From Moritella viscosa (GTDB lineage Bacteria; Pseudomonadota; Gammaproteobacteria; Enterobacterales; Moritellaceae): a stretch of DNA of 64,000 bases. This document shows positions 19,689-50,263 of the stretch, one piece after another. The notes under the pieces were generated by a model. That model was not told the origin of the DNA. It made no database searches and saw only the letters and a list, made by a program, of their open reading frames with translations. Each line of letters opens with the position of its first letter. The first letter of the stretch is position 1. The stretch is taken from assembly GCA_000953735.1 (NCBI GenBank), contig LN554852.1, forward strand, positions 1,871,846 through 1,935,845, written 5' to 3'. Made by a program: the position numbers and the translations under genes.

Positions 19689-19719
19689 TGTTTATGTATC
19701 CTAGTTTCTCGGCTATCTT

Positions 19720-20667: not shown

Positions 20668-20676
20668 TAAATGTCC

Positions 20677-20710: not shown

Positions 20711-20766
20711 GTTTTTATCGTGAGTTGCCATATGGGGATTAAGTTATTGTGATTAGCCGTAGCTAG

Positions 20767-21573: not shown

Positions 21574-22381
21574 GCTCAGCTCCATATTCCTGTGCTAAAC
21601 AAGTCATGATTTGTTGCTGTAGTTGTGCACATTCAGCATCGAATTGACGCGGTTTCGCCGATGTCGGTACTTGTAAGTATTCTGCCTCAGCAGGCTTGCC
21701 TTGCATAATATAGATATGATCAGCGAGGCGGATCGCTTCTTGGGGCTCGTGTGTGATTAAAACGACGGTTTTATCTTTTAACAATTCACAAGCGAGGTCT
21801 TGTAATCGATAACGAGTCACGGCATCTAAGGCTGAAAAGGGCTCGTCCATTAATACAACGGGTTTGTCTTGCATTAATGTTCTTGCCAGTGCCACGCGTT
21901 GACGCATGCCTCCAGACAGTTGTTGCGGAAAACGATTGGCATTATCAGCAAGACCGACCTTAGCCAGTAGATCGAGTGCTTTGTCAGTTTTTGGTGCTGA
22001 TTTTTCAGTGCCGAATTTACTGCTTAACATGACATTGTCGAGCACGGACAACCAAGGTAGCAATAAATCTTGCTGTGCCATGTAAGCAATTTGATTGGTT
22101 AAGTCTGGTTGAACTAAGTTATTCGCGTTAACTGATAGTTCTCCTGACCACATTATTTTATGATCTAACAGCCCTGCAAGGTAACGCAGTAGTGAGGTTT
22201 TACCACTGCCGCTACGCCCTAAAATACAGGTCCACTGCCGAGCTGGCACCGTCATGTTCAGCTTGTTTAATACGGGGTCAATACTGTCGTTATAATGTAA
22301 ATAACCGTTCTTAATCGCGATGTTTACCGCAAGGCTATCTTCCGATTTTAGCTTTGTCTGCGAGGTGCTAGACATCAGCAT
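21566..22381 (-). CDS. thiZ: ABC transporter ATP-binding protein for thiamine precursor
   Basis: A 271-residue ABC ATPase with all motifs intact: Walker A GRSGSGKTS, Q loop (MAQQDLLLPW), signature LSGGMRQRVALAR, Walker B VVLMDEPFSALD and the switch His in ITHEPQEA. It overlaps thiD by 14 bases and the permease by eight, showing translational coupling. No strong SD is seen before ATG 22381 or the second ATG at 22375. Confidence 0.93.
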   Translation of the reverse strand: MLMSSTSQTKLKSEDSLAVNIAIKNGYLHYNDSIDPVLNKLNMTVPARQWTCILGRSGSGKTSLLRYLAGLLDHKIMWSGELSVNANNLVQPDLTNQIAYMAQQDLLLPWLSVLDNVMLSSKFGTEKSAPKTDKALDLLAKVGLADNANRFPQQLSGGMRQRVALARTLMQDKPVVLMDEPFSALDAVTRYRLQDLACELLKDKTVVLITHEPQEAIRLADHIYIMQGKPAEAEYLQVPTSAKPRQFDAECAQLQQQIMTCLAQEYGAEHE

Positions 22382-23201
22382 GACCAGTAAAGAAGTGATT
22401 AACCGGACCGTGGCCGCTACCTATATCTAATTCATCCGCGTGAGCAATGGCGTTGGAGATGTATTGCTTAGCTAACTTCACAGCTTGCAGTAGATCATAG
22501 CCTTGGGCTAAGTAGGATGCGATTGCTGAGGATAGCGTACAGCCAGTGCCGTGCGTATTGTGGGTATTAATGCGTTTTGCGGTTAACTGTTCCACATGGT
22601 CTTGGAAGATGAGTAAATCGTTACTGTTGTCATCTTGCTCTAAGTGACCGCCTTTTAATAGTACTGCATTGACATTAAGCTGACGCAATTCGCTAATCAT
22701 GCTGCCCATTTCATCTTCATTGGTAGGCACATCTGAACCAATTAAAGCAGCTCCTTCGGGTAGGTTAGGGGTGATTAAGTCAGCAAGTGGTAGTAGCTCT
22801 GATTTAAGCGTACTGATCGCTGATTCTTTAAGCAGTAAGTCGCCGCTAGTAGCAATCATAACTGGGTCAACAACTAAAAATGCTGGCTTAAATTGCTTAA
22901 TTTTAGCGGCGACGACGTTGATAATATCGCAGTCAGCAAGCATTCCAACTTTCACTGCCACGACGTTTAAATCGCTAAATACGGCATCGAGTTGTTTTTC
23001 GATATGTTCAAGTGGGATGGGAAAAATTGCGGATACACCGAGAGTGTTTTGCGCAGTGATTGCGGTGATTGCAGAACAAGCATAACTGCCAGTTGCTGAT
23101 ATTGCTTTGATATCTGCTTGAATACCAGCACCGCCACCGCTATCTGACCCTGCAATGGTTAATACAATTGGTGTTGATATGTTTGTTATAACCTTTAGCA
23201 T
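22368..23201 (-). CDS. thiD: hydroxymethylpyrimidine / phosphomethylpyrimidine kinase
   Basis: A 277-residue ribokinase-family enzyme that phosphorylates hydroxymethylpyrimidine twice for thiamine synthesis. Diagnostic parts are TIAGSDSGGGAGIQADIK, the central KVGMLAD and VVDPVMIATSG, and the C-terminal anion-hole motif NTHGTGCTLSSAIA with catalytic Asp-equivalent context. First gene of the operon, directly under the TPP riboswitch. Confidence 0.96.
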   Translation of the reverse strand: MLKVITNISTPIVLTIAGSDSGGGAGIQADIKAISATGSYACSAITAITAQNTLGVSAIFPIPLEHIEKQLDAVFSDLNVVAVKVGMLADCDIINVVAAKIKQFKPAFLVVDPVMIATSGDLLLKESAISTLKSELLPLADLITPNLPEGAALIGSDVPTNEDEMGSMISELRQLNVNAVLLKGGHLEQDDNSNDLLIFQDHVEQLTAKRINTHNTHGTGCTLSSAIASYLAQGYDLLQAVKLAKQYISNAIAHADELDIGSGHGPVNHFFTGHADV

Positions 23202-23289
23202 AAATATTCCTAGGGCTGGCGCACAGGAACTTTATCAAGCCAAAGATTGAGAGACGCAGAAGGTCAAATCATGAGAAGCAAGATCGATA

Positions 23290-23372
23290 GTTCTCTACGT
23301 CAGTGTTAACTGAATCAGGTTCAACGGGTCTCGCAATAAATATGCGATCTCAGCCTATTAGGCCCCCCGACT
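23290..23372 (-). promoter_or_regulatory. TPP riboswitch (THI element)
   Basis: Read on the minus strand, the segment holds the conserved blocks of the thiamine-pyrophosphate riboswitch in order: TCGGGGGGCC, GGCTGAGA, ACCCGTTGAACCTGAT, and a closing ACGTAGAGAA. It lies about 90 bases before thiD and should repress the thi salvage operon when TPP is plentiful. Confidence 0.95.
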
Positions 23373-23384
23373 ATATGTGTTGCA

Positions 23385-24279: not shown

Positions 24280-24620
24280 TGAGTAGGCCATGATTTGCTA
24301 TATATCGAAGGCAAATCATGCATAAGTTTTAGTAAATCCTTTTAAGTTCATTCCCGTTGTTCCCATCCCCCATGAAATTTCATCGCAGAGGTAATACTGT
24401 TATCACGTTTTACTGTGCTTAATTTTATTTTTACAGCCCTTACAAAACAGGTTGTTACGTTATATTTGTGAGGTTATATCCAGTCAATGTGATAACCTAA
24501 AATAGATAAGTCATTGTTCGTATTAATGAATCGCTTGATAACTTTGAACGTATCATTTTAGTTTGTCTTGTCGACCAAAAGGGGCTCAGATAAGTGTTGG
24601 GAAAAATAAAGGGAATTATT

Positions 24621-25421
24621 ATGTTGGATAAAAAATATACCGCAGGTGTCTTAGCTATCTCTGTGTTTATGACAAGCGGTTTTATTACTGCTCAAGCTCA
24701 AACGTCAGAAGAAAAAGGTTTTGCTATCGCAAAAGAGCGTAAGGTAAGGGATTCTGGGTGGAATGATAGTATCCAGCAAACCACTATGGTACTGCGTAAT
24801 GCAAAAGGGAAGGAAAGTATTCGAGAAATACGAATAAAAAGTCTAGAGGTTGTTGATGATGGTGATAAAGGTTTGACTATTTTTGATAAACCCGCAGACC
24901 TTAAAGGTACTGCTTTTCTTTCTTTTTCACATATCAATAAAGCGGATGATCAATGGCTTTATTTACCGTCATTAAAACGAGTTAAGCGCATTTCCTCTCG
25001 TAATAAAGCGGGCCCTTTTATGGGGAGCGAATTTTCATATGAAGATCTATCTTCATTCGAGCTAGAAAAATTCAAATTTAATTATCTAAAAGATGACATG
25101 TTTAACGGTAGCCAAATGTTCGTGATTGAAAGTTTTCCTACCGATGAAGACTCTGGATATACCAAACTGATTAGTTGGGTGGATCAAGACAAATATCTTG
25201 TACACAAAGTCGATTTTTATGATCGTAAATCGACAAAATTTAAGACGCTTACTGCAAATAACTACAAGCTATATCTTAATAAATTTTGGCGAGCCGAATC
25301 GATGACCATGATTAATCACCAAACTGGGAAAAGTACGACAATGACTTACCATGATGTGAAGTTTAATCAAGGGTTAACAGTACGCGATTTTAATAAAAAT
25401 TCATTAAAGCGTGCGAGATAA
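24621..25421 (+). CDS. outer-membrane lipoprotein-sorting (LolA-like) periplasmic protein
   Basis: A 266-residue exported protein (signal peptide ending QAQ, about residue 27). It matches the LolA-like family annotated as outer membrane lipoprotein-sorting protein, with the typical IREIRIKSLE, PADLKGTAFLSFSH, WLYLPSLKRVKRISS and MGSEFSYED segments. Such proteins usually accompany MMPL/RND exporters and are thought to carry a lipid across the periplasm. Start ATG 24621 has AAGGGA upstream; the earlier GTG at 24594 would precede the signal peptide and is rejected. The stop overlaps a possible start of the next gene, so both are one operon, a short distance before the MMPL gene. Confidence 0.88.
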   Translation: MLDKKYTAGVLAISVFMTSGFITAQAQTSEEKGFAIAKERKVRDSGWNDSIQQTTMVLRNAKGKESIREIRIKSLEVVDDGDKGLTIFDKPADLKGTAFLSFSHINKADDQWLYLPSLKRVKRISSRNKAGPFMGSEFSYEDLSSFELEKFKFNYLKDDMFNGSQMFVIESFPTDEDSGYTKLISWVDQDKYLVHKVDFYDRKSTKFKTLTANNYKLYLNKFWRAESMTMINHQTGKSTTMTYHDVKFNQGLTVRDFNKNSLKRAR

Positions 25422-25431
25422 GTTTAATCCT

Positions 25432-26784
25432 ATGGGATATTTAGAGACTTCGTTGAAATACAATAATAAGTCCTTAGTTGCTGTATTAAGTTTAATTATC
25501 TCCACGAGTTCATTCGCTGCGATAGACTTAAGTGGCTTGGTGGGCCTAGAAACTCGATATTTTATACAAACACCAGTTGACTCGGAACAAACTGATGAGC
25601 AGTTATCACTAAATTTTAGCCCTGAACTTTATTGGGAAGGGGACGATCAAAGCGTTCTTTTCAAACCTTATGTTCGTTTAGACAGTGTGGACTTTAACCG
25701 TTCCCATTTTGATATTCGAGAAGCTATCTATTCTACATATCACGATACTTTTGAATTGAAAGTGGGTATCGGTAAGGTTTTTTGGGGGGTAACAGAAACG
25801 CTTAATTTAGTTGATGTAGTTAATCAAAATGATGCAATAGATCGATTTGATGAAAACGAAAAGTTAGGTCAGCCTATGTTTCATTTTTCAACCTTTAGTG
25901 ATTGGGGAAATGTAGAACTACTGATATTACCTTTTTTTCGACCTGTTATTTTTCCTGGTGATAAAACACGTTTTCGCCCAACCCCTATCGTATTAAGAGC
26001 ACTTAATTCAGGGCGCTCTAATGGTATAGGACCTACATATATAGATATAAGAATAGATAATAGTGATCCTACATATGAAGCGAAGAATGGTGAATCACAT
26101 ATAGATCTAGCAAGCCGTTGGACAAACAGTATTGATAACTGGGATCTTGGGGTAAGTTGGTTTAATGGTACATCAAGAGAGCCTAATTTTAACGTATCGA
26201 TTGATTCCGATGTATTATCGACTGGACAGGTAACATTGAAGCCATTTTATCCATTGATTAATCAGTTTGGCATTGATACTCAGTACATTTATGATGATTG
26301 GATACTTAAGCTAGAGAGTATTAATCGAAGTGGCGATAAAATCAAAAATTACACTGCATTTGTTACGGGGTTTGAATATAATTTTTATGCTATTCAAGAC
26401 TCAATGGTCGATATAGGGATGATCGTTGAATATGCATGGGACTCACGTGACAAGATCAAAAATTTAAATGAAAATATGAGTAATCTAGAAGACATTAAGC
26501 GTCAAATTGAGAGTAATAATCTCAGCATTAACCGCAATAACATATCTGTTGCATCAAGGTTTACATTTAATGATGTAGAGTCGAGTGAACTACTGATAGG
26601 AACAAACCAGAACCTTAATTATAAAGGTTCTCGAACAATATTTATTGATATAAGCACCCGAGTAGGTGAGTCCACTAAAATATCTGCAAACGCGACGTTT
26701 ATTTGGAGTGACGATCCATTTGATCCTGGCTATATGTTCCGACAAGACGACTATATTCAAGTCACGGCCGAGTATTACTTTTAA
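25432..26784 (+). CDS. outer-membrane beta-barrel protein linked to lipid export locus
   Basis: About 450 residues with a signal peptide ending SSFA. The mature chain is rich in amphipathic strands with Tyr/Phe/Trp and ends YIQVTAEYYF, a C-terminal Phe signature of barrels. It resembles proteins usually found between a LolA-like protein and an RND/MMPL exporter (DUF1302-like), but I cannot name the family with certainty. ATG 25432 is preferred to GTG 25411, as it puts the signal peptide closer to the start; no SD is strong. A terminator follows at 26788-26814. Confidence 0.8.
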   Translation: MGYLETSLKYNNKSLVAVLSLIISTSSFAAIDLSGLVGLETRYFIQTPVDSEQTDEQLSLNFSPELYWEGDDQSVLFKPYVRLDSVDFNRSHFDIREAIYSTYHDTFELKVGIGKVFWGVTETLNLVDVVNQNDAIDRFDENEKLGQPMFHFSTFSDWGNVELLILPFFRPVIFPGDKTRFRPTPIVLRALNSGRSNGIGPTYIDIRIDNSDPTYEAKNGESHIDLASRWTNSIDNWDLGVSWFNGTSREPNFNVSIDSDVLSTGQVTLKPFYPLINQFGIDTQYIYDDWILKLESINRSGDKIKNYTAFVTGFEYNFYAIQDSMVDIGMIVEYAWDSRDKIKNLNENMSNLEDIKRQIESNNLSINRNNISVASRFTFNDVESSELLIGTNQNLNYKGSRTIFIDISTRVGESTKISANATFIWSDDPFDPGYMFRQDDYIQVTAEYYF

Positions 26785-27469: not shown

Positions 27470-29764
27470 ATGGAAGTCATAAAAACCTCTTTACTGATTA
27501 ACTTTGTTATTAAAAGACCAAAACTAACAATTTGTTTGTTCACATGTCTGATCTTTGTTTCAATTTTTGGCACCCTGAACCTCAGTTTTACGTCTGATTT
27601 CAGATCTTATTTCAGTTTAGACAATCCCCAGTTAAAAACATTTGAACAACTTGAAACTGACTTTAATAAACAAGACACTCTGACTTTTCTTGTTGAGAGT
27701 TCGAATAATAATCCAAGTATCTACCAGGCTGAAATTATTCATTATCTTGAATTATTAACCGATGAAGCATGGGCTATTCCTTATTCTCGGCGTGTTGATT
27801 CACTGATTAACTTTCAAAAGATGAGCGTAGATGAAGATGATTTACAAATAAATGATTTAGTACCCGGAAACGGTCATTTGACACCGTCTTTTTTACTCGA
27901 ATTAAAGCAGTATGCAGAAACTCAACCTAGGCTACTTAACAATTTAGTCAGTGTAGATGGAACGCTTGCAATCGTTCAGGTTACCCTCACTTTACCTGAA
28001 AGTAATGAGGCTGCGACTCCAGAGCTAATTAGTTATGCTCGAAATAAGCTTGAAGAAATAAGTAATAGTAATGTAAAAGTCCAACTTTTTGGTACTTCAG
28101 TTATTAATATTGCGTTAATGGAAGCGGTTGAGCGTGATATGGCGCTACTTATTCCGAGTAGTTATTTATTAATTTTTGCTGCAATATATTTCTTATCTTG
28201 CTCTATTTCTGGCGCTACTCTGTCTCTTGGTGTGACCTTGATGACTGTATTGTCAGTGTTTGGTATTTTTGGCTGGCAAGCGCATCAACTCACTCCAGTT
28301 GTTGGTGCTGTACCGTCAATGATTATGGTCATTGTAGTTGCTGATTGCATGCATTTACTTGTCTCTTATCAATATTATATACGCCAAGGCCTTAAGCAAG
28401 AATCTGCAATTCGAGAGGCTCTAACAGCCAATATTAAACCTATTGTTATTACTTCAGTCACAACAGCGATAGGGCTTCTTTGTTTAAACTTTAGCGAGTC
28501 ACCACCTTATCGAGATCTTGGTAATCTCGTTGCTTTGGGGGCGATTATCGCCTGTATTTTGAGTTTGACTTGGTTTCCGGCTGTTTTATTACTATTGCCC
28601 GAACCGAAGAAACTGCCGAATATTGATAACGGATGGTTACACTCCATTATTATGAAGTTTAGTCAGCTGCTGACAACACATACAAAGTTATTGTGGCTAT
28701 TCACTTTTGTGCTTCTTTTGGCTGGTGGTTTTGGCGCAACTAAATTAGAACTAAATGATCAATGGCATCAATATTACGATGAGACCTTCGATGTTCGTCA
28801 AGCAATTGAAACTCAAAATGATAAATTAAATGGCGTTAACTTCATTCAATACTCTGTTGCGTCAGGTGGTGAGTTGGGCATATTAACGCCTGAATATCAA
28901 AAAGATTTAGATAAGTTAATTCAATGGGTTCGCACACAAAATAATGTCGGATATGTTGATGGGTTTAGTCTACAAGTTAAGGAGTTAAGCCAAAAACTTA
29001 ATCAAGATAATCCTGATTTTTATCAGGTACCAAATAGTAAAAATGCGATAGCTCAATCTGTGTTGCTTTATGAAATGTCACTCCCTTATGGTATGGGCGT
29101 TGACGAGCAGGTTAATTTTGATAAATCAGCGACACGATTAACAATCAATTTACATAAAATATCCTCTAAAGAATTATCAGCATTTGATCTGAAGTTAACA
29201 ACTTGGGCTGCAGAGAATACACCTACGCTGTTGCTAACAGAGGGGTCGGGTGTTGATATGATTTTTGCAAAAATTTCAGATCGTAATAGTGAGAGCTTGC
29301 TGAAAGGAACTGCGCTTGCGTTGATCTTAATTTCAGTATTACTGAGCTTCTTGCTGCGCTCTTGGAAGCTAGGCCTTATTAGTATCATCCCTAATATTAT
29401 TCCGATCATGATGGCTTATGGTATATGGGGGCTTATGGATGGTCACATTGACCTAGGTCTTAGTATCGTCGCAAGTATGGGGCTAGGGCTTGTTGTTGAC
29501 GATACTGTTCATTTTCTATTTAAATATCGTCACGCGAAACAAAATAATATGGCAACGACAGAAGCGGTTGAGTACGCATTTAATATCGTTGGTATAGCCA
29601 TCATTATTACATCGATAGTACTTACTTTAGGTTTCGGACTGCTGACATTATCACACTTCTCACCGACCTACGGAATGGGAGCATTACTTGCCTTAACAGT
29701 GATGCTTGCTGCCGTTATTGACTTCATTTTATTACCGTTACTTTTACTCAAGTTCGATAAATAA
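27470..29764 (+). CDS. MMPL-family RND transporter, putative lipid exporter
   Basis: A 764-residue inner-membrane protein with two repeated halves, each with one helix, a large periplasmic loop and five further helices. The transmembrane acidic residues of proton-driven RND pumps are present: VADCMHLL (residues 290-297) and GLVVDDTVHF (about 674-681). It belongs with the HpnN/MmpL-like branch that moves lipids such as hopanoids or glycolipids, rather than drug pumps with membrane-fusion partners. First gene of the tight operon 27470-40172. The LolA-like protein and barrel upstream are likely partners. GGATGG serves as SD. Confidence 0.92.
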   Translation: MEVIKTSLLINFVIKRPKLTICLFTCLIFVSIFGTLNLSFTSDFRSYFSLDNPQLKTFEQLETDFNKQDTLTFLVESSNNNPSIYQAEIIHYLELLTDEAWAIPYSRRVDSLINFQKMSVDEDDLQINDLVPGNGHLTPSFLLELKQYAETQPRLLNNLVSVDGTLAIVQVTLTLPESNEAATPELISYARNKLEEISNSNVKVQLFGTSVINIALMEAVERDMALLIPSSYLLIFAAIYFLSCSISGATLSLGVTLMTVLSVFGIFGWQAHQLTPVVGAVPSMIMVIVVADCMHLLVSYQYYIRQGLKQESAIREALTANIKPIVITSVTTAIGLLCLNFSESPPYRDLGNLVALGAIIACILSLTWFPAVLLLLPEPKKLPNIDNGWLHSIIMKFSQLLTTHTKLLWLFTFVLLLAGGFGATKLELNDQWHQYYDETFDVRQAIETQNDKLNGVNFIQYSVASGGELGILTPEYQKDLDKLIQWVRTQNNVGYVDGFSLQVKELSQKLNQDNPDFYQVPNSKNAIAQSVLLYEMSLPYGMGVDEQVNFDKSATRLTINLHKISSKELSAFDLKLTTWAAENTPTLLLTEGSGVDMIFAKISDRNSESLLKGTALALILISVLLSFLLRSWKLGLISIIPNIIPIMMAYGIWGLMDGHIDLGLSIVASMGLGLVVDDTVHFLFKYRHAKQNNMATTEAVEYAFNIVGIAIIITSIVLTLGFGLLTLSHFSPTYGMGALLALTVMLAAVIDFILLPLLLLKFDK

Positions 29765-29821
29765 CTCAATGGATGAGCCCATTAATAAATAGGCTCGAAT
29801 AGTACCAAAAGGACTTTAATC

Positions 29822-30747
29822 ATGACACAAGCTTTAACCCTTAACGACTCTATCCACAAAAGAATACTTGGATGGATTGATGAACGTTTTCCACTTCCTA
29901 ATGCAGTATTATTTTTTATTTTGTATTTGCTTTCTGCCGTCGTTGCGAGAGCGACGCATAATGGTGAATCGAGTCTTGTTCTGTTTGATATTGTAAGCTG
30001 CTTAGTCACTTGGCTATTATTTTTACTTGTTCGTATTTTTGATGAACATAAAGATTACGAGTTAGATGTACTTAATCATCCTAAACGAGTTCTGCAAAGT
30101 GGGCTTGTTACGTTAAATAATTTAAAAGTATTAGGCGTTATTTCTATTGTTTCTCAGGTACTTATTTCACTGTATCTAGATGCATTTAGTTTTGGATCTG
30201 TTACCTTTTCCTGGGCAATTATGTTTGTTTATTTATGCTTAATGGGCGTTGAGTTTTTTTGTGGTGAATGGTTAGAGAAACGTCTTACGCTTTTTCTCAT
30301 ATGCTACTTATGCCTATTACCGTTTATTGGTTGGCTAACTTAGCTGTGCCTGGGATTGAACTAAATACCCCATTAATACTGACTATGCTGTTGTCATTTG
30401 TGAGTGGCTTTTGCTTTGAAATAACACGTAAAACCAGAGGACCTGAAGAGGAGAGAGAGACGGTCGATTCATACTCAAAAATATTTGGTACTAAAGGTTC
30501 GGCATTTGTCATTATTTTACTGCTATCAGGCATGCTTTTTTTGCAAATATTATTACTACTTAGTTTAGACGTTTCAATTGTTTGGATTTATGTTATCGCG
30601 TCATCTGCAATGTTTGTTTATTCCTTGAAATTCATTTTAAGTTTTATTCGTTATCCAACTTTAGCTGCTCGAGAAAAGAATGAAACTGCTATCGGTCTTA
30701 ACCTGCTTGTTGGTTATCTCATTGTCATCATCGCAACGTTTATTTAA
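29822..30747 (+). pseudogene. UbiA-family prenyltransferase, interrupted by a frameshift
   Basis: Two overlapping reading frames (29822-30343 and 30268-30747) together spell one membrane prenyltransferase of about 308 residues, the usual UbiA size. The first part has the Asp-rich motif FDEHKDYELD followed by HPKRVLQSGLV; the second has the second motif region FEITRKTRGPEEERETVDSYS. The change from frame 2 to frame 1 must lie between 30268 and about 30345, because a TGA in the second frame at 30265-30267 blocks an earlier shift. An A run (30278-30280) or T run (30291-30295) that lost one base is likely. It could be a true mutation, a sequencing error, or less likely a -1 recoding site; no classical slippery heptamer is seen. 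Family members join isoprenyl chains to acceptors. Confidence 0.85.
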
Positions 30748-30768
30748 GCCCAAGGGTAGGATTATAGT

Positions 30769-33501
30769 ATGAGAACCAGAAGTGAAAATATCGTTAGTTA
30801 CAGCATGAATGATGTAGCTAATACAAAGAGTACTATGTGTGTCGACAAGAATGTCAGGGCTGTGACATTGCTTAATGTTTCTAAATGTCAGTTAACGCTT
30901 TCCTGTAAAGAGTATCAATTTAGTTGTGTTGGACAGCGTATTGAAAGTATTAAAATATCTATTCTTGGTCATGCCTTCCAGTTAAATAATTTATCTGTTT
31001 ATCAGATTGACCAAAATAATGGTGTTGCACAGGTTGAATTACGAAATGAGACTGATAGCGATACTAAAAAAGTGCTGTGGAAAATATGCGATATCTTGCA
31101 CCTTATACAAGAGCAAGAAAGCAATGGAAGACTGTCTCAATTACCATTACCAAAAGTACCAGGGCGAGGTTTATACACTCAAGAAGCAAGATTAGACCGT
31201 CTCGAATATGTGCGTAGCCATACAGAAGCAAAGCTTGAAATGGTGGCTCAGACGACACTTAATGAATCTTCACTAAAGAGTAATATCGAAGCACTAATCG
31301 GTTCTGTCGAAATACCTTTAGGTGTTGCAGGTCCACTGCTAATTCGGGGGAAACATGCTCGTGGATTATTTAATGCGCCGATGGCGACCTCTGAAGGTGT
31401 ATTGATTGCTTCTGCAACGCGAGGTGCTACGGCATTATCTCAAGCTGGCGGGGTGAACGTTCGTGTATTAGGACAGCGTATGTATCGAGCACCCATTTTT
31501 GTGTTCAGTGATTTATCATCAGCCTTATTTTTTGCCGATTGGGTGAAAGATCATTATCAGGAGCTTGTTAAGCAAACGCGTCAATATTCAAATTATGCCG
31601 ATCTTGTTGAAGTCTCGACTGAATTAATGGGTCGTGCTGTACATGTTCAATTTATTTATGAAACTGGTGACGCAGCCGGACAAAATATGACGACAACCTG
31701 TACTTGGCAGGCTTGTCAGTGGGTTTTAGATCAGCTCAAAGAGTTTGAAAATTTAAAATTACAGAATTTCGTGATTGACGGAAATACTTCGAATGATAAA
31801 AAAGTCACTTATCATTCATTTTTAAAGGGACGAGGAATTAGAGTCGTCGCAGAGTGCGTATTAACTGAAGACATATGTAAAAAAACACTAAAAGTAACAC
31901 CACTGCAATTGATCACGGCCTATCACTACATCCTTAACGGTGCAATTGCATCGGGTACTATCGGTATTAATATTAATATTGCTAATGTGATTGCCGCTAT
32001 GTTTGTTGCTACAGGTCAAGATATTGCGAGTGTTCATGAGTCATCGATAGGTAATCTGCATTTAGAACTGAACGAAAATAATGACATTTACATTACGCTT
32101 CAATTACCTTCACTGGTCGTTGGTACTGTGGGTGGTGGGACCAACCTGACGCAACAAAGAGAGTGCTTAGAAATACTTGGTTGTGCGGGGGCGAACAATT
32201 CACACAAGCTTGCAGAGATCATCACTTCATTCTGTTTGGCATTGGATCTATCCACTTTATCTGCGTTAGCCAGTGACCAATTTGCTAGAGCGCATGAAAA
32301 AATGGGGCGTAATAGGCCGATTGAATGGTTGACGTTGAAAGATCTAGACAAAGATTTCTTCACCAAAGGGATGCAAACGTATACTCAAAACTACGGGATT
32401 ATTGTAGCCAAAGCGGAGCCCTTAGAAATAGAAAAAACGGGTTGCAGTATTATCTGTGATTTAACAGCTGAAAGAGTAAACAAGATTATAGGGCATCATC
32501 CTTATCAGCTCACTCTTGAAGGAGAAATAAATCCTGTAAACGTAATGGTTAAAATAAAGCCATTAGATACCGAAGTTATTTTAATGGTGAATGGCATTAT
32601 GTCGATGGGGCACCCTGGGTTGGCCACATCATATAATAAGTTCAAAAAAAGTATGGGATTCAGAGGTTGCCATATAAGAGAGTTGGCTATTATGTCACAA
32701 ACAGATCCTCGGTTTGTTCGTAATGCGCCTAAAACATATATGACCGTTCAGGATGATAGTCGTGAGTCTTATATATTAGTTCAAGAACTCATGGAAAACA
32801 TGGAACTAATGGATAGCGCCGACGATACTTCTGGTTGGACTCCTGAGCATATTAATGCCGCAATTGAAGGTGTCGCTGAAGTTCATGCAATTTGGTATGG
32901 TCGTGAAGATGAGCTCGCCAAAAAAGAGTGGATCATGGATGTGCCTAACAGCGAAAACATGCAGGAAAAAATTTACCTGTGGGAAATGTTAGGCACGCAT
33001 GCGACAGAAGATTTCCCCGAATGGTTCTGTGAAAAAGACATGGTTCGTTTTATCAATCGTGTTAATACATTAAAAGATTGGTATCGCGAGATAGATGCGA
33101 TGCCAAAAACATTAATTCATAATGATTTTAATCCAAGAAATATCACTTTCCGCCGTGAATACGGTGAATTACGTCTTTGTGCCTATGACTGGGAACTGGC
33201 TACAATTCAAATACCTCAACATGATCTCGCAGAGTTATTAGCCTTCACCCTACAGCCTGACTTCGATCAAAGTGATGTCGAACAATATATCGAAAATCAT
33301 CGTCAAGCATTACAACAGCAAACGAATTCAGAGATAGATCCAATCCAATGGCGTAGAGGGTTTACGTTGTCTTTATTTGATCTCGTGATTAACCGTATAC
33401 CTATGTTCATAGTGAGCCATAGCTTCCGTCACTATGAATTTATGGAACGAGTACAAATGACATTACGTAGACTTTTAGATCATGAAGGAGCAGTAGAATA
33501 A
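30769..33501 (+). CDS. HMG-CoA reductase fused to APH-like kinase
   Basis: A 910-residue three-part protein. Residues about 25-110 look PilZ-like (tentative). Residues about 130-550 are a class I-type HMG-CoA reductase, which makes mevalonate from HMG-CoA with NADPH; the four catalytic positions are kept: Glu209 (PMATSEG), Lys345 (NDKK), Asp418 (GQD) and His509 (ARAHEKM), with the DAAGQNMT dimerisation motif and VGTVGGGTNL. Residues about 560-900 are an aminoglycoside-phosphotransferase/choline-kinase-like domain with HNDFNPRN (His784, Asp786, Asn791) and the metal Asp807 in YDWE. Gammaproteobacteria normally make isoprenoids by the MEP route, so a reductase here is unusual. It follows the UbiA gene by 21 bases and touches the next gene. 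Confidence 0.88.
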   Translation: MRTRSENIVSYSMNDVANTKSTMCVDKNVRAVTLLNVSKCQLTLSCKEYQFSCVGQRIESIKISILGHAFQLNNLSVYQIDQNNGVAQVELRNETDSDTKKVLWKICDILHLIQEQESNGRLSQLPLPKVPGRGLYTQEARLDRLEYVRSHTEAKLEMVAQTTLNESSLKSNIEALIGSVEIPLGVAGPLLIRGKHARGLFNAPMATSEGVLIASATRGATALSQAGGVNVRVLGQRMYRAPIFVFSDLSSALFFADWVKDHYQELVKQTRQYSNYADLVEVSTELMGRAVHVQFIYETGDAAGQNMTTTCTWQACQWVLDQLKEFENLKLQNFVIDGNTSNDKKVTYHSFLKGRGIRVVAECVLTEDICKKTLKVTPLQLITAYHYILNGAIASGTIGININIANVIAAMFVATGQDIASVHESSIGNLHLELNENNDIYITLQLPSLVVGTVGGGTNLTQQRECLEILGCAGANNSHKLAEIITSFCLALDLSTLSALASDQFARAHEKMGRNRPIEWLTLKDLDKDFFTKGMQTYTQNYGIIVAKAEPLEIEKTGCSIICDLTAERVNKIIGHHPYQLTLEGEINPVNVMVKIKPLDTEVILMVNGIMSMGHPGLATSYNKFKKSMGFRGCHIRELAIMSQTDPRFVRNAPKTYMTVQDDSRESYILVQELMENMELMDSADDTSGWTPEHINAAIEGVAEVHAIWYGREDELAKKEWIMDVPNSENMQEKIYLWEMLGTHATEDFPEWFCEKDMVRFINRVNTLKDWYREIDAMPKTLIHNDFNPRNITFRREYGELRLCAYDWELATIQIPQHDLAELLAFTLQPDFDQSDVEQYIENHRQALQQQTNSEIDPIQWRRGFTLSLFDLVINRIPMFIVSHSFRHYEFMERVQMTLRRLLDHEGAVE

Positions 33502-33502
33502 T

Positions 33503-36229
33503 ATGACCACACAATATATTTTAGACGCGGTAGAAGCGGCACAAGTGGATACCGATTTACTCGGTGGTAAAGCTGAAAATTTAGCATTATTAACACGTAA
33601 TGGATTCACTGTTCCTAAGTGGTGGGTACTAACAACGGAAGGTTTTTCAACACAACTTGAGCAGCTTGGTATTAAAGATTGGGTTGAAGATAAAGTTAAA
33701 TTATTAGCGGGTGAAGAAAATAACAAGGTTATTGCAGGCATTGCGCAAGAGATTCAAGCAGAGATCGGCAAGCAGCAATTAAATGATGAAATAATACAGG
33801 GTATCCGTAGTGCAATCTCGGCAGAGGTATTAGCCAGAACATCTTTTGCTGTACGCTCATCTGTTGTGGGTGAGGATGCTGAAGGCGCATCTTTCGCAGG
33901 ACAGATGGATTCATACTTATATCAAAGTGGCGAAAATGCTATTTTCACCTCGATTATTAAAGTGATGCAAAGTGCATTTAATCATCGGGCATTAGCATAT
34001 AGGATCCAAAAAGGGCTCGATCTTAGCGACATTCGGGCTGCTGTGATTATTCAAGAGATGGTAGATGCTGACGTTGCAGGTGTGATGTTTACAGCTCACC
34101 CTATTACAGGTAGTCGCCAGCATGCTTTAATTTCATCAACTTGGGGCTGTGGTGAAGGGATTGTTTCAGGTATCTGTAATACAGATGAAACAACTGTTGC
34201 CCTGTATAACGATGATGTAGATACGAGCATTAATGATAAAGACACAGCTCTAATATTTGATGCGAATGGTACACACGGCACAATAGAAGTGCCTGTTGAA
34301 GAGGTTCGTCGTGAAATAGCTTGCTTGGAAAAAAGTCAGATATTGGTGTTACGTGATATCGGTTTGAAAATTGCTGAAAGTTACCAAATGCCTCAAGACA
34401 TCGAGTGGTGTTTAAAAGATGGCCATTTTTATATCTTACAAACGCGTCCAATTACCTCTTTACCGCCTATTAACGCTGCCACAGATGATGTACAAGTTTG
34501 GGATAATTCAAATATTCAAGAGTCTTATTGTGGCGTAACAACCCCATTAACCTTTAGTTTTGCGAATAGAGCTTACAAACATGTTTACGAGCAAACATTC
34601 AGGTTGCTTGGCATTAGTGAAAAAGTAGTGCAAGAAAATCAGGAGATGCTCAATAACATGCTGGGTTTAATAAATGGCCGAGTCTATTACAACATCAATA
34701 ATTGGTATTTAGGGTTGCAGTTCCTTCCTTCATTTAAAACGAATAAGGCTGACATGGAACGTATGATGGGGTTAACTGATCCTGTCGATATGATCCAAGA
34801 TAAACAGCTCTCTTTCAATGAGAAATTAAAAAAGTTACCACAAATATTTAAAGCATTATTTACCTTGCTCAGTCGATACAGAAAGATGGATACACTAGTA
34901 GCAGAATTTAGATCCCACTTTCAACAAGTCTATAGCGCAATCAATAGAGAGCAGTTACACACGTTGACGATTGGCCAACTTATTAATAAAAGCAAGCAGC
35001 TAGATGCAGAGATATTTTTAAACTGGACGTCACCAATTGTTAATGACTTTTATGTAATGACGATGAACGGAAAGGTGCATCGTTGGTTAGAAAAGGTGAG
35101 TGTAGAATATCCAGATATAGTGCAAAACAATTTACTCTCGGGTGAAGAGGGGATTGAAAGTACTGAACCAACGAAGTTCTTGCTACGTATGTGTGGCTAT
35201 TTACGTCAACATGAAGAGATTAAAAATCTAGTCCTTGAGGGTGAAAACAGTAAATTACTTAGTTTAATACAGACTTGTGACCCTCAATTCTATTCACAGT
35301 GTATGGACTACATCGAACGTTTTGGTGACCGAACTATAGGCGAGTTAAAACTTGAATCTATTACACTACGTCAAGATTCCTCGTTCATGTTTGCAATATT
35401 GAAAAACTTCTTAGCAAACCCTGATTTAAGTCTTGAGTCTTTGGCCAAAAATGAGAGTAAATTTAGAAAAGAAGCGGAAGAATTAGTTTATCCATTAATT
35501 GAAAGTAAATTAGGACGTCGATCATTAAGGAAATTCAAAACAGACCTTGGGAAGCTGAGAGATGCTATTCGTAATAGAGAAAATATGCGTTTGGCACGTA
35601 CACGAGCCTTTGGTTTATTTAGAAGTATTTATTTAGAAATTGGCGAACAGCTTGCGTTTTACGGCAAGATAGATGAACCAAGAGATATATTCTTTCTAAG
35701 TATCGAAGAAATTTATGCTTATAAAGAAGGTCGTTCCATACATACCAAACTCGATACTCTTATTGCCCCACGTAAGCAAGAGTTTGCATCGTACGAAGAT
35801 AATGACTTACCACATCACTTTTGGACTAAAGGTGCGGTTTATTGCAATAACGTCTATGAGTACCCGCATCAAGATGAAGACCTTGATCTAAATTCTGAAC
35901 ATTTAAAAGGAACAGGCTGCTACCCAGGTGTTGTAGAGAAAAACATACGCTTGATTTTCTCTCCTGATGATGAGCTAAGTCTAGATGGTCAAATTCTCTG
36001 TACAGTAAGAACCGATCCCGGCTGGGCACCATTATTCCCAACTGCTGGTGGTATTATCGTCGAGCGGGGGTCAACATTGTCGCATTCTGCAGTTGTCGCT
36101 CGCGAACTTGGAATTCCGGCTATCGTTGGCGTCCCTAATTTAACTAAAATCCTAACCGATCATGAAAAGATCCGCATGGATGGTACGTCTGGAAAAGTTG
36201 AGCGAATTGAGGTATCGGATAATGATTAA
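33503..36229 (+). CDS. PEP-synthase/rifampicin-phosphotransferase-like dikinase
   Basis: A 908-residue protein with an N-terminal ATP-grasp domain of the PPDK type (LGGKAENLALL, FAVRSSVVGEDAEGASFAG, IQEMVDADVAGVMFTAHP, IEWCLKDGHFYILQTRPI), a long middle segment (about 330-780), and a C-terminal swivelling phosphohistidine domain with GSTLSHSAVVARELGIP (His861). The PEP/pyruvate TIM barrel of true PEP synthase is absent, as in rifampicin phosphotransferase, which moves the beta-phosphate of ATP to an alcohol. In this operon I infer it phosphorylates a lipid or isoprenoid alcohol rather than an antibiotic. One base after the reductase gene; overlaps the next gene by eight bases. Confidence 0.85.
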   Translation: MTTQYILDAVEAAQVDTDLLGGKAENLALLTRNGFTVPKWWVLTTEGFSTQLEQLGIKDWVEDKVKLLAGEENNKVIAGIAQEIQAEIGKQQLNDEIIQGIRSAISAEVLARTSFAVRSSVVGEDAEGASFAGQMDSYLYQSGENAIFTSIIKVMQSAFNHRALAYRIQKGLDLSDIRAAVIIQEMVDADVAGVMFTAHPITGSRQHALISSTWGCGEGIVSGICNTDETTVALYNDDVDTSINDKDTALIFDANGTHGTIEVPVEEVRREIACLEKSQILVLRDIGLKIAESYQMPQDIEWCLKDGHFYILQTRPITSLPPINAATDDVQVWDNSNIQESYCGVTTPLTFSFANRAYKHVYEQTFRLLGISEKVVQENQEMLNNMLGLINGRVYYNINNWYLGLQFLPSFKTNKADMERMMGLTDPVDMIQDKQLSFNEKLKKLPQIFKALFTLLSRYRKMDTLVAEFRSHFQQVYSAINREQLHTLTIGQLINKSKQLDAEIFLNWTSPIVNDFYVMTMNGKVHRWLEKVSVEYPDIVQNNLLSGEEGIESTEPTKFLLRMCGYLRQHEEIKNLVLEGENSKLLSLIQTCDPQFYSQCMDYIERFGDRTIGELKLESITLRQDSSFMFAILKNFLANPDLSLESLAKNESKFRKEAEELVYPLIESKLGRRSLRKFKTDLGKLRDAIRNRENMRLARTRAFGLFRSIYLEIGEQLAFYGKIDEPRDIFFLSIEEIYAYKEGRSIHTKLDTLIAPRKQEFASYEDNDLPHHFWTKGAVYCNNVYEYPHQDEDLDLNSEHLKGTGCYPGVVEKNIRLIFSPDDELSLDGQILCTVRTDPGWAPLFPTAGGIIVERGSTLSHSAVVARELGIPAIVGVPNLTKILTDHEKIRMDGTSGKVERIEVSDND

Positions 36230-37340
36230 TCATCAATCATGGATACCTGAAAATACATTGCCGAATGCATTTTTTGATGTCGCAGCAAAGATATATCAGG
36301 ATAAAGCTTACTGGATTAAAGAAAGTGAAGCTCAAATTCGCCAGCAGTTTAGTGCTGAAAACCCTTATTTTAAACACTGCGAAGCAAAGGTTATTGTCTA
36401 TGAAAATGAAGCAAGAGTTGTTGCTTTCTTCAATCCGAATCAGCAAATAGATGGGGAGACCGTCGCCTATTTTGGGTTCTGGGAAACGGTTAATAATGTT
36501 GAGTTGAATCGAGTTCTATTCTCTCAAGTAGAGACATGGGCAAAATCGAAAGGTGCAACTCGATTATATGGACCGATTGACTTCAGTACATATGGTGAAA
36601 ATCGTATACGGATAAATAGTTTTACCAGTCCTGCATTTATTGGTGAACCCTTTAACCCTGATTATTACCCAGAGCTATTATCACAATTAGGGTTCGGGAT
36701 TAAATATAACTATGTTTCTCGTATACACGATAAATTATCAGAGTTCGCATTACAGGTTCGTCCTTTTTATGACGGACTAATGACTAAAATTGGTCACGAA
36801 TTTACTATTACGCAGTTAACACCTGAGATATGGCTGGATAAACTAGACCAGTTTTACCCCATGATTGACCAAAGTTTCAAAGATAATTTTGCATATACGC
36901 CCGTAAGTTGGACTCACTTCAAACATAACTTTGGGCAAAGGTTCGCTGGCAAGTTATGCCCTAAAACATCAGTGCTTGTACTCGATAAACAAGGGGGAAT
37001 AGCCGCATTTTTACTCTGCTTTCCCGATTACGGTGAACTTGTGAATCAACAAGGTGAACAACTGGATGTGGCTGAACTTAATTACAGCACACATTACAAC
37101 GCTTTAAGTAGTCCAAGGCTTTTACTGATGAAAACCGGTGGTGCCGACCCTAAATATCGTTCTAAAGGTTTGTCGACGCTTGTTGCGATGCAAACCTCGA
37201 TTTGGGCTAATGAATATTACGAGCAGCTTTCAGGCGCGATGGTACGAGAAGACAACCGTAGCTTGGCTTTTCTCAAAGATTGGGAAATTGAAAGGAAGTA
37301 CGCTTTATTCAGTAAATCATTGGTTAACACCTCATTCTAA
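36222..37340 (+). CDS. GNAT-like acyltransferase, unknown substrate
   Basis: A 372-residue cytoplasmic protein of the long GNAT-related type marked by GPIDFSTYGENR and NPDYYPELLSQLGF (about residues 130-170), with a second GNAT-like half ending GGADPKYRSKGLSTLV, which resembles the acetyl-CoA-binding loop. The start ATG 36222 overlaps the dikinase stop; an upstream frame from 36162 is rejected since it lies inside that gene. Family members are often next to acyl-CoA ligases and other lipid or peptide genes and may N- or O-acylate a substrate. Exact reaction unknown. Confidence 0.75.
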   Translation: MINHQSWIPENTLPNAFFDVAAKIYQDKAYWIKESEAQIRQQFSAENPYFKHCEAKVIVYENEARVVAFFNPNQQIDGETVAYFGFWETVNNVELNRVLFSQVETWAKSKGATRLYGPIDFSTYGENRIRINSFTSPAFIGEPFNPDYYPELLSQLGFGIKYNYVSRIHDKLSEFALQVRPFYDGLMTKIGHEFTITQLTPEIWLDKLDQFYPMIDQSFKDNFAYTPVSWTHFKHNFGQRFAGKLCPKTSVLVLDKQGGIAAFLLCFPDYGELVNQQGEQLDVAELNYSTHYNALSSPRLLLMKTGGADPKYRSKGLSTLVAMQTSIWANEYYEQLSGAMVREDNRSLAFLKDWEIERKYALFSKSLVNTSF

Positions 37341-37354
37341 AAGGGACGTTTAAG

Positions 37355-38989
37355 ATGAATGAGACTTATCATAATGGAAATATGGCTGCCGATTTTATAT
37401 ATCAAGCGAATCGATTTCCCAACAAATTAGCATTAAAAATTCCTGTGATGGATAAACAAGATTGTTTGTCAGAAGAATCTTGTACGTATGCGGAATTATT
37501 GAATCTTGTTAGCCGTTATAAACAGTTATGGCGAATTAAGGGGTGGAAGGCTACTGATAGGGTGATTATTATTTTAAAACCCAGCCAGCATTTATATGCC
37601 ATTGCGCTGTCTATGACTGCAATTGGCATCATACCTGTATTTATTGATACGGGGATGGGTAGAAAAAAAATACAAATGGCGATCCAAGATGCAAATGCAA
37701 AAGCCATTATTAGCTTATCGGCTTTAGTAAAATTGTTTTGGTTTATCCCCTCACTATGGCGTCTTGAGCGTTTGGCTCTCGATAAACCGGGGATTGGCTA
37801 TGGGGGGATTTTACAACAATTGGTGCTAAAAACGACAGCTGTGCCGATATGCATAGCACGGAATAATACTGACCATGGATTAATCACGTTTACTTCTGGT
37901 AGCACAGGTAGGCCGAAAGGGGCTGACCGTACACACAGCAGTTTAGTTAACCAGCATCGAGCCATCAGCTTGTTAGAAGGGGATAGTGGGAATGCTGTTG
38001 ATAGCCCTTGCTTCCCAATGATTGTCTTACATAACTTAAGTTGTGGTATGAGTACCATTATACCTAAGGTTGACTTTGCTGATCCTGCTGGCGTGAATGC
38101 TGGCATTGTGATTGAACAACTTAAGGAAGCTGACGTAACACAAATATCAGGCGCACCTGCTTATATCTCTAAATTGGTTGATTGGTTATTAAGTCATAAT
38201 CAATCCATGACGGATATTGGGCAAGTCGTTGTTGGTGGTGCAACAGTCTCCGTTGAACTTGCTAAACGAATACTGCAGGTATTTCCAAATGCTCATGGCA
38301 TCATTATTTATGGTTCTACAGAAGCTGAGCCAATTTCAACTATCGATATGAAAACGTATATCACGGATCACAACCAAGCCGATGGCTACTTAGTGGGTAC
38401 GCCACATGAATTTTGTGACGTCTTAATTGCTGATGTGAGTGATGATTGCTGCCATGAGTCATCTCTTGGTTTGGGTATGAAGAAGCAAGGTCAAGTAGGA
38501 GAAATACTCGTCAGTGGTGTGCATGTTCTTCAGCAGTACCTTGATAATCCAAGCGCAAATAGGGAAAACAAAATCCCTCGTAATAATGGGTTGGTTTGGC
38601 ATAGAACAGGTGATACAGGGCTATTCGATACGCAAGGTAGGCTTTGGCTCACAGGACGTGTGAAAGATATTATTTATGTAAATAATGAGACCTTACAAGC
38701 ATATCCAATTGAGCGTGGACTTGATGCATTAAAAGATGTGACACGTACAGCCTTAATTTCACATGAGAATCGTGTGTATCTGTTCTTACAACTTAAGACT
38801 GAAATCAACATTGGGTTACAGGTGCAAATTCAGCAAATATTACGTCAGTCGGGTATTCAGCAGGTATTGCCTTTAGTCTTGTCTAAAATCCCTGTTGATG
38901 GTCGGCATAATAGTAAAATTGATCGTCCAATGTTACGAGTGTACATTTTAAGTAGTAAGACGTCTAACGCTGAAACATGGAGTTGTTAA
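37355..38989 (+). CDS. adenylate-forming acyl-CoA ligase-like enzyme
   Basis: A 544-residue ANL-superfamily enzyme that activates a carboxylate with ATP. Seen: P-loop TFTSGSTGRPKG (178-189), YGSTEAEP (319-326), RTGDTG (417-422) and the C-terminal catalytic Lys521 in NSKIDRP. The wording around GADRTH after the P-loop and the overall length recall OleC-like ligases, which act on beta-hydroxy acids to form beta-lactones, but OleA, OleB and OleD are not nearby. In context it may activate a fatty or hydroxy acid for the GNAT-like protein encoded 14 bases upstream. Operon member. Confidence 0.88.
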   Translation: MNETYHNGNMAADFIYQANRFPNKLALKIPVMDKQDCLSEESCTYAELLNLVSRYKQLWRIKGWKATDRVIIILKPSQHLYAIALSMTAIGIIPVFIDTGMGRKKIQMAIQDANAKAIISLSALVKLFWFIPSLWRLERLALDKPGIGYGGILQQLVLKTTAVPICIARNNTDHGLITFTSGSTGRPKGADRTHSSLVNQHRAISLLEGDSGNAVDSPCFPMIVLHNLSCGMSTIIPKVDFADPAGVNAGIVIEQLKEADVTQISGAPAYISKLVDWLLSHNQSMTDIGQVVVGGATVSVELAKRILQVFPNAHGIIIYGSTEAEPISTIDMKTYITDHNQADGYLVGTPHEFCDVLIADVSDDCCHESSLGLGMKKQGQVGEILVSGVHVLQQYLDNPSANRENKIPRNNGLVWHRTGDTGLFDTQGRLWLTGRVKDIIYVNNETLQAYPIERGLDALKDVTRTALISHENRVYLFLQLKTEINIGLQVQIQQILRQSGIQQVLPLVLSKIPVDGRHNSKIDRPMLRVYILSSKTSNAETWSC

Positions 38990-38990
38990 T

Positions 38991-40172
38991 ATGATTGAAA
39001 AAATAGAATCACCTTATATTATAAAGTTAAATCGCGTTGACTTATTAACGTTAACAAGCGTGTTTACTACTTTTACCGCATTGATTAGTGCGATTGATGA
39101 ACGTCCCTATTTTGCGATGGTACTACTATTTATTGCGATGATAGCAGATGCCTTGGATGGCATTCTGGCGAGAAAGTGGGGGTTAGAACGAGATTTTGGC
39201 CGTTACCTTGATGGTTTTATGGATATGCAAATATACTTAATTACACCTGGAGTCGTTATGTACCAATGGGGTTTTGATGGCTACTGGTCTCTTTTCATTA
39301 TGGCGATGATAACCAGTGGGAGTGTTAGGCTTGCCGCGTTTAATCAAACGGGTAATATAAAAGAAGAAAATGGATTAAGTTATTTAGGGATGCCTGTTTT
39401 TTGGAGTATTTTTATTCTTTCTGCTGCTTTTGTTATTGAAAGGGTTCTGGGATCATTTTCAGCATATATCTCACTTGCAGCTGGTTTATCTTTGTTTAGT
39501 TATTATATGGTCGTAAGGAAGCCTTTCTTTAAGTTTAAATCTATCAGCCAAATTGTAAAAATCACATTAACAGGTATATTATTTTTTACTGTTTTGGAAC
39601 TTTTGAATCATGATAAGAGCTCTCCTATCATGAATATATTACTCGCTTTATATCTTTTGATTCCTGCTGCTTTGGGCGGGGTATTACATATGATTTTTGT
39701 GAGTAAAAATAGACTGAATTTTTTAGTTGTTCCTGTTAGCAAATCATTATTTGGCGCAAACAAAACATGGCGAGGGGTGATACTTGTTCCTTTGTTAACC
39801 ATGGTTAGTGCACTGGTTTTAGTACTCATGGAGTTCGTATTAACAAAAGTATATGGTCAAGGCTTACTACCTGACATCAACGTTTTGTTTTTGGGATTTA
39901 TCACAGGCGTTGGTTATATATTAGGGGAGTTTCCAAACTCTTACTTTAAACGTTGTTTGGGTATCGGGCCTGGAGAACTACCTGAAAAGAACAAATATTT
40001 TTTTATGGCGATAGATCAGTTAGATTCAGCTATTGGTATCGCAATTATGTATAGTTTAGTATTTGGTTTCTCTTTTGAAATATTATGGGTGTACGTACTT
40101 TGTTTCCCAATCACAGCACTTTTAGTAAAAAGATGGCTGTTCAATAACAAGTTGAAATCAAGTGCGGTATAA
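38991..40172 (+). CDS. CDP-alcohol phosphatidyltransferase fused to CarS-like CDP-lipid synthase
   Basis: A 393-residue polytopic membrane protein made of two lipid enzymes. The N-terminal half has the full CDP-alcohol phosphatidyltransferase signature D53-xx-D56-G57-xx-A60-R61-x8-G70-xxx-D74-xxx-D78. The C-terminal half (about 215-390) carries the CarS/DUF46 marks GANKTWRG (255-262), NSYFKRCLGI (316-325) and DQLDSAIG (342-349), seen in CDP-archaeol synthase, a CdsA relative that makes CDP-activated lipid from CTP. One chain could therefore activate a phospholipid precursor with CTP and then exchange CMP for a head-group alcohol. It starts one base after the ligase gene and closes the operon. 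The fusion is unusual to my knowledge. Confidence 0.88.
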   Translation: MIEKIESPYIIKLNRVDLLTLTSVFTTFTALISAIDERPYFAMVLLFIAMIADALDGILARKWGLERDFGRYLDGFMDMQIYLITPGVVMYQWGFDGYWSLFIMAMITSGSVRLAAFNQTGNIKEENGLSYLGMPVFWSIFILSAAFVIERVLGSFSAYISLAAGLSLFSYYMVVRKPFFKFKSISQIVKITLTGILFFTVLELLNHDKSSPIMNILLALYLLIPAALGGVLHMIFVSKNRLNFLVVPVSKSLFGANKTWRGVILVPLLTMVSALVLVLMEFVLTKVYGQGLLPDINVLFLGFITGVGYILGEFPNSYFKRCLGIGPGELPEKNKYFFMAIDQLDSAIGIAIMYSLVFGFSFEILWVYVLCFPITALLVKRWLFNNKLKSSAV

Positions 40173-50257: not shown

Positions 50258-50263
50258 CTAGCG

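Follow-up and report, generated by a model that had tools for sequence, protein, structure and literature searches.

What lipid, if any, does a bacterial operon make when it joins gene families of archaeal membrane-lipid synthesis to an exporter? The question is raised by seven plus-strand genes at 27470–40172 of the window, a stretch of 64,000 nucleotides from Moritella viscosa (assembly GCA_000953735.1, contig LN554852.1, positions 1,871,846 to 1,935,845). A sequence-only reading of this DNA had proposed that an isoprenoid- or mevalonate-derived phospholipid is made here and exported, four of the gene families being ones that act in archaeal membrane-lipid synthesis. Our analysis indicates that this is a real, conserved and apparently undescribed lipid-type pathway, and that the archaeal and mevalonate part of the proposal is not supported. 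The reading that we prefer, in our judgement about as likely as not, is that the operon has spread horizontally and serves a dedicated pathway, distinct from the archaeal one, for an amide-containing, cytidine diphosphate (CDP)-activated phospholipid, with proteins of its own that carry the lipid to the outer membrane.

The operon and its gene families

The list of open reading frames (ORFs) confirmed the seven genes, their order, their strand and their spacings of 57, 21, 1, –8, 14 and 1 bases, the –8 depending on a start of the N-acyltransferase gene at 36222. Pfam and NCBIfam matches upheld most of the families first named: an MMPL exporter, an HMG-CoA reductase (HMGR; HMG-CoA_red) joined to an APH/EcKL kinase, a dikinase (PPDK_N and PEP-utilizers), an ANL ligase (AMP-binding) and a CDP-alcohol transferase with a CarS-like domain (CDP-OH_P_transf). 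The prenyltransferase matched UbiA models and proved not to be one open gene, and the protein labelled GNAT-like is better described as a relative of YghO and bacterial ceramide synthase.

Conservation and spread of the gene set

To place the operon among its relatives, we compared 32 loci, 31 from a scan of named genomes with an HMGR/kinase protein and one extended locus of the same order (L053); all 32 were retrieved through that protein. The core order UbiA–HMGR/kinase–dikinase–GNAT–ANL–CDP-alcohol transferase, on one strand, was observed in 19 of the 32 across many genera, and an MMPL gene preceded this six-gene core in 16 loci, joined in nine of them by LolA-like and outer-membrane genes. 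Gene distances correlated pairwise across the seven genes (r = 0.73–0.92 for all 21 pairs, with 0 of 500 permutations as high for each), in a comparison without L021 and the window UbiA, with the CDP-alcohol transferase gene cut to 200 residues, and with shared species descent also adding to the correlations. Since the same order recurs in 19 loci and all 21 correlations exceed the 500 permutations, the conserved gene order is not chance. The proposal from the sequence of a single biosynthesis-and-export unit with lipid-type chemistry is borne out.

Elsewhere the cluster is incomplete or altered. A contig border interrupts it in six loci (L021, L022, L034, L038, L045 and L051, of which L038 and L051 are two contigs from a single metagenome-assembled genome (MAG)), and the order is rearranged in a Hydrogenedens single cell (L039). 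HMGR alone is visible at four loci (L041, L042, L044 and L049), with L042 and L044 at contig ends and a dikinase on another contig in the genome of L044. A survey for solitary copies, covering HMGR/kinase and the N-acyltransferase, found HMGR/kinase homologues mostly in the conserved neighbourhood, the firm exceptions being two Streptomyces loci with HMGRs of the same clade and no cluster (L041, 9941–12364; L049, 9944–11305). L041 retains the kinase and adjoins an MFS transporter, and another HMGR/kinase lies on the Streptomyces plasmid NZ_CP109493.1 (868582–870891); 37 plasmid records matched HMGR/kinase, a single one, from a Streptomyces, over 80% of the protein.

Holders of the cluster include Thalassolituus, Oleispira, Bermanella, Marinobacter, Alcanivoracaceae, Atopomonas, Pseudomonas, Moraxellaceae, Endozoicomonas, Kosakonia sacchari and strain HdN1, besides the Hydrogenedens cell, and many holders overall are MAGs. 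In sampled genomes the genes are rare. Counting the M. viscosa genome itself each time, HMGR with kinase matched in 2 of 295 genomes of the order (29 more matched the HMGR domain only, 18 of which were fetched as L003–L020), the full-length HMGR/kinase profile in 2 of 369 genomes of the class and the N-acyltransferase profile in 2 of 398 genomes of the phylum; within the genus, 1 of 11 genomes has HMGR/kinase. Horizontal transfer of the operon is likely because the window HMGR groups in a tree with the Bermanella, Oleispira and Thalassolituus copies (support 88/55), and the gene set appears to travel together among unrelated bacteria, many of them marine.

Transfer may have been followed by loss, in which case the M. 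viscosa operon would be a decaying copy that makes nothing or a truncated product. Its UbiA gene is split over two frames, with an ORF for the N-terminal part at 29822–30343 (NF004617, 6.4e-32) and one for the C-terminal part at 30268–30747 (2.6e-28), which match the first and second halves of one NCBIfam model and meet at a break between about 30284 and 30297; in 25 relatives UbiA is a single open frame of 306–324 codons. A search of the same genome with the relatives' profile found only these two pieces and no second copy at 1e-20, and HMGR/kinase is found in none of the ten other genomes of the genus. Against decay, the other six frames are open, one MAG locus (L026, below) suggests that the cluster can be maintained in the absence of UbiA, and the single frameshift is possibly a sequencing error, a real mutation and such an error being indistinguishable from this sequence. 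We regard decay as possible though doubtful; if the frameshift is genuine, the final product of the M. viscosa pathway may be blocked or altered.

The patchy spread, with two genomes in the class and one in the genus, would also suit a secreted small specialised metabolite, such as an antibiotic or a signal, built on a lipid-phosphate scaffold with no membrane lipid involved. Natural-product pathways also use ANL, dikinase and MMPL families, and P450s and hydrolases were read by eye around one variant locus (L050). The LolA-like protein, the outer-membrane partner and the CDP-lipid enzymes point instead to a membrane lipid, and a specialised metabolite is in our judgement unlikely.

An HMGR with an altered pocket

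The HMGR/kinase gene (30769–33501; Pfam 6.1e-115 and 1.6e-8) encodes a β-rich N-terminal domain (residues ~19–118), an HMGR domain (143–514) and an APH/EcKL-type kinase domain (~560–910), a layout that is seen in a structure model (mean predicted local distance difference test (pLDDT) 79.6, predicted TM-score (pTM) 0.49) and its fold match. The N-terminal ~120 residues (window 30769–31149) are modelled as six strands and one helix, are poorly conserved and have no Pfam match. The HMGR domain is class I both by sequence and by fold, and the kinase motifs H-[NG]-D-F-N-P-R-N and DWEL were present in 22 of 22 proteins.

HMGR residues were compared in 31 clade rows, 27 from cluster loci including the window plus L041, L042, L044 and L049, with two rows gapped at places and human numbering mapped via the Arabidopsis chain. 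The residues to which we assign the catalytic roles were kept, Glu in 29 of the 29 rows with a letter and Lys, Asp and His in all 31. A751, which we assume to be a pocket position, just as we assume the numbering of the other HMGR sites, is Ile in 28 of 31 rows. S684, H752 and L853, pocket residues by their statin contacts (PMC9500038), are changed throughout: H752 to Asn, L853 to Thr and S684 to Glu or Asp, each in 31 of 31. Because 18 stand-alone HMGRs from the order all keep H752 and carry Leu or Ile at position 853, while 12 of the 18 have an acid at position 684, it is H752N and L853T that emerge from the alignment as marks of the cluster HMGR clade. In the tree, 29 rows of the cluster HMGRs grouped on a single long-stemmed branch (100/100), the tree tool warning of long branches, and stood apart from stand-alone bacterial, archaeal and plant HMGRs, which counts against the proposed archaeal steps.

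HMG-CoA synthase and the archaeal route

We then considered whether this HMGR could be fed in the usual way. None of 23 genomes yielded an HMG-CoA synthase. Of these, 22 have the cluster and one, Streptomyces mashuensis, has HMGR only, the genome of L047 being left out; two have a completeness value and 21 have none. Among 14 control genomes, 4 were positive. Together with the pocket, altered in all 31 rows, this speaks against a mevalonate-derived product.

An archaeal-type isoprenoid phospholipid would need HMGR to make mevalonate, UbiA to form an archaeal-type ether lipid, and CarS and the CDP-alcohol transferase to add the head group. In its favour, DGGGP synthase is the closest solved relative of UbiA by sequence and ties for best match by fold, and the operon encodes CarS-like and archaetidylserine-synthase-like domains, both under their NCBIfam cut-offs; archaeal CarS prefers unsaturated prenyl lipids (PMC9385802). 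The aspartates of DGGGP synthase are given as D66/D70 and D180/D183/D187 (PMC9385802). In the cluster UbiA, D79 and D83 were kept in 20 of 20 proteins, and the third motif reads K211 (20/20), G214 (19/20, Ala in one) and E218 (19/20, Asp in one). Lys and Gly thus replace two of the three aspartates in the third motif on which DGGGP synthase depends; the correspondence of the third-motif positions comes from alignments to 6m31 (domain E-value 160) and 9sas (0.14) that are weak but consistent with each other. Full-length GGGP synthase (PF01884) was found in 0 of 24 genomes, six of which have fragments covering 39–92 of 226 positions, one just at the cut-off; of 14 control genomes, 5 scored above it. 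Neither glycerol-1-phosphate dehydrogenase nor geranylgeranyl reductase is among the operon families, no genome-wide search having been made for them. The archaeal and mevalonate reading, and with it the proposed set of four archaeal steps, therefore breaks down at each of three points examined: HMG-CoA synthase, GGGP synthase and the third UbiA motif; with the HMGR pocket altered as well, we hold it to be very unlikely.

A relative of bacterial ceramide synthase

The N-acyltransferase gene (36222–37340) has no Pfam match of its own. By hhalign profile comparison it matched E. coli YghO with 98.5% probability over 293 of 379 columns and the copy of genome G1007 with 99.4% over 347 of 379 columns, one unrelated protein used as negative control giving 0.1%. 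In G1007 a relative of serine palmitoyltransferase (SPT; 49% identity) lies ~8 kb from the N-acyltransferase copy. One report describes yghO/CC_1154 as an acyl-CoA N-acyltransferase for dihydroceramide (PMC9386255). By profile, the operon protein is a distant relative of bacterial ceramide synthase and YghO.

A close SPT relative was detected in only one of 23 genomes with the cluster (G303, 55% identity, on a separate contig), the other 22 having a best match of at most 38% identity or none at 1e-40, and the control genome G1007 being detected. Because an SPT relative above 38% identity occurs only in G303, the acyltransferase probably acts on an amine other than 3-oxo-sphinganine. That the cluster modifies and exports ceramide-like lipids from the SPT product is highly improbable: the ceramide-synthase relative and the G303 enzyme would fit, and the SPT counts, the separate contig and an ANL ligase that is not AasR-like do not.

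A condensation/PapA-like variant of the cluster was found at two loci (L050, 14702–18948; L058, 1048–4232). In L050 there is no YghO-type gene on the contig, and a condensation/PapA-like acyltransferase gene sits between the ANL and CDP-alcohol transferase genes; the ORFs around it were read by eye as P450s and α/β hydrolases.

Dikinase, ligase and CDP-lipid enzymes

The dikinase (33503–36229) has the ATP-grasp, middle and C-terminal His domains of the rifampin phosphotransferase (RPH) type. Its closest structures are of the 5fbs/5hv1 type (6e-123), which we take to be RPH, followed by 8a8e (2e-82), all of them labelled phosphoenolpyruvate (PEP) synthase in the PDB. Pfam matched PPDK_N and PEP-utilizers only, at E up to 0.05, and gave no match to PF02896, presumably the C-terminal pyruvate/PEP-binding barrel of PEP synthase. 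The protein scored 1319.5 against a curated cut-off of 1063 for the PRK06241.2-4 equivalog and 368 against a cut-off of 999 for the NCBIfam rifamycin-inactivating model, and its His column is invariant (14/14).

The ANL-family acyl-activating ligase (37355–38989) has PRK09274 as its best NCBIfam model, at 435.6 bits against a cut-off of 478. Two other assignments do not fit: as an OleC β-lactone synthetase it reached 195 and 184 bits against curated cut-offs of 900 and 850, and it is not an AasR-like ligase. The last gene (38991–40172; Pfam 6.6e-13 and 8.6e-8) fuses a CDP-alcohol phosphatidyltransferase domain, whose motif is complete in 8 of 8 aligned fused proteins and whose closest solved relatives are CDP-diacylglycerol-serine transferases (4e-10), to a CarS-like cytidylyltransferase domain, which scored 32.8 bits in Pfam, over the cut-off of 22, and 39.1 bits for NCBIfam PRK04032, under the cut-off of 148. 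The ANL ligase is tied to the CDP steps because fusions join CDP-alcohol transferase and CarS in the window, ANL and CDP-alcohol transferase in L033, and ANL and a CarS-like region in L050; Pfam gives no CarS in the L050 fusion nor in a separate gene of L029.

Export genes

The MMPL/RND-type lipid exporter (27470–29764; Pfam MMPL 1.1e-38) resembles the NCBIfam families HAE3 and HpnN under their cut-offs. Upstream lie, on the plus strand, a gene of the LolA-like outer-membrane lipoprotein-sorting family (24594–25421; Pfam LolA_like 2.9e-62), probably encoding a periplasmic lipid carrier and probably the upstream part of the system, and an outer-membrane-type gene (25411–26784), which has no Pfam match and was read by eye as the probable outer-membrane partner of the exporter; its relatives adjoin the LolA-like gene in cluster loci. 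A gap of 685 bases separates it from the MMPL gene. Since relatives of both genes precede MMPL in 9 of the 16 full MMPL-to-CDP loci, the unit may start at the LolA-like gene and not at MMPL. In Kosakonia (L046), no MMPL relative was found in the locus and the genes ahead of UbiA are instead for an ABC-2 permease and an HlyD-type protein, so export seems to be retained by other means there.

A proposed pathway and its weak points

Families, intact catalytic motifs, conserved order, the altered HMGR pocket and the failure to find HMG-CoA synthase or full-length GGGP synthase were computed; we infer every substrate, the order of steps and the product from family chemistry. In the preferred reading, a dedicated amide-containing phospholipid, the ANL ligase would turn a carboxylic acid into a thioester, the HMGR-like domain would reduce this to an alcohol, and the fused kinase would phosphorylate the alcohol to a backbone that replaces glycerol phosphate. 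The UbiA-like enzyme would attach a prenyl-type chain and the ceramide-synthase-like acyltransferase a fatty acyl chain as an amide, while the RPH-type dikinase would phosphorylate a hydroxyl group, which might belong to the substrate that donates or accepts the chain in the UbiA step. The CarS-like domain would then form the CDP-lipid, the CDP-alcohol transferase, with solved relatives named serine transferases, would attach the head group, and the MMPL, LolA-like and outer-membrane proteins would move the lipid outwards.

Several observations weigh against this proposal. The donor and acceptor of UbiA and the substrates of the dikinase are guesses, and among the cluster proteins we recognised none that would provide the amine substrate. 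HMGR retains R590 (29/29), K692 (31/31) and mostly K735 (29/31, Arg in two); with these residues for the HMG end in place beside the altered pocket, we read the enzyme as having a changed substrate that would still bear an anionic group and might carry an amine facing the new acid. That acid, and Q657, which all 18 stand-alone HMGRs share, are not special to the clade. Both Streptomyces loci without the cluster have H752N and L853T, so these changes are independent of the rest of the operon. The scarcity of completeness values bears on the HMG-CoA synthase count, and 20 of 24 genomes, that of M. viscosa included, have an HMG-CoA lyase, so that HMG-CoA from leucine breakdown may exist and HMGR may still use it. 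Finally, the MAG locus L026 holds three cluster genes only, for HMGR/kinase, N-acyltransferase and CDP-CarS, and neither a dikinase at 1e-60 nor UbiA at 1e-20 was found in the whole MAG. The joint absence suggests, thinly and from this one MAG, that UbiA and the dikinase act together and are dispensable for the core.

A bolder form of the proposal is a bacterial membrane lipid of a new class, built on neither glycerol nor a sphingoid base. Its backbone would be a phosphorylated (amino)alcohol that a repurposed HMGR and kinase make from an acyl thioester and that bears one UbiA-attached prenyl chain and one amide-linked acyl chain; a bacterial CarS would activate the lipid, and the MMPL, LolA-like and outer-membrane proteins would export it to the outer membrane. 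Taken as a whole this is improbable. The Hydrogenedens locus (L039, 6192–15243) has additional DUF3419, enolase-like and GH3 amido-synthetase genes, the first presumably BtaA-like, which may reveal the head group or the amine. Thalassolituus, Oleispira, Marinobacter and Alcanivoracaceae are known for oil degradation; since several holders are such genera, a surface lipid with a role in oil degradation is a plausible guess.

Surroundings of the operon

Three further features were noted in the window. A thiamine pyrophosphate (TPP) riboswitch (76 bits) lies at 23275–23379 on the minus strand, directly ahead of a series of ORFs on that strand (19026–23201). Aconitase-family and PrpF genes at 47654–51475 are, we assume, a methylcitrate-pathway set. 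A Mutator-family transposase lies at 61002–62210, ~21 kb downstream of the operon.

Comparison with known systems

Aimed literature searches found no paper describing the product, and no match to a characterised cluster was found, as the sequence-only reading had implied in calling the pathway new. Interest in a lipid pathway that is conserved and transferable among Gammaproteobacteria would be wide, and this one raises testable questions: what HMGR does without HMG-CoA synthase, what a ceramide-synthase relative acylates without SPT, and which bacterial lipid requires a CarS-type cytidylyltransferase.

With the archaeal phospholipid pathway of DGGGP synthase, CarS and archaetidylserine synthase, the cluster shares its UbiA likeness and its CarS-like and serine-type CDP-alcohol transferase domains; it differs in the altered third UbiA motif, in the two synthases that were not found (full-length GGGP synthase and HMG-CoA synthase) and in its extra ANL ligase, N-acyltransferase, dikinase and kinase. 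Bacterial ceramide synthesis (SPT, AcpR, AasR, CerR and bCerS/YghO) shares the N-acyltransferase family by profile, whereas the cluster has a close SPT relative in one genome of 23, no AasR-like ligase and other surrounding chemistry. Compared with class I HMG-CoA reductases, known from cholesterol synthesis, the cluster enzyme forms a separate clade with H752N, L853T, A751I and S684D/E, a fused kinase and no HMG-CoA synthase in the 23 genomes. The dikinase has the same domain set as RPH, which we take its closest solved relatives to be, yet falls well under the rifamycin-inactivating cut-off. Hopanoid and aryl-polyene export sets combine MMPL with a LolA-like protein, and the cluster shares with them MMPL, LolA-like and outer-membrane proteins, coupled here to unrelated biosynthetic genes.

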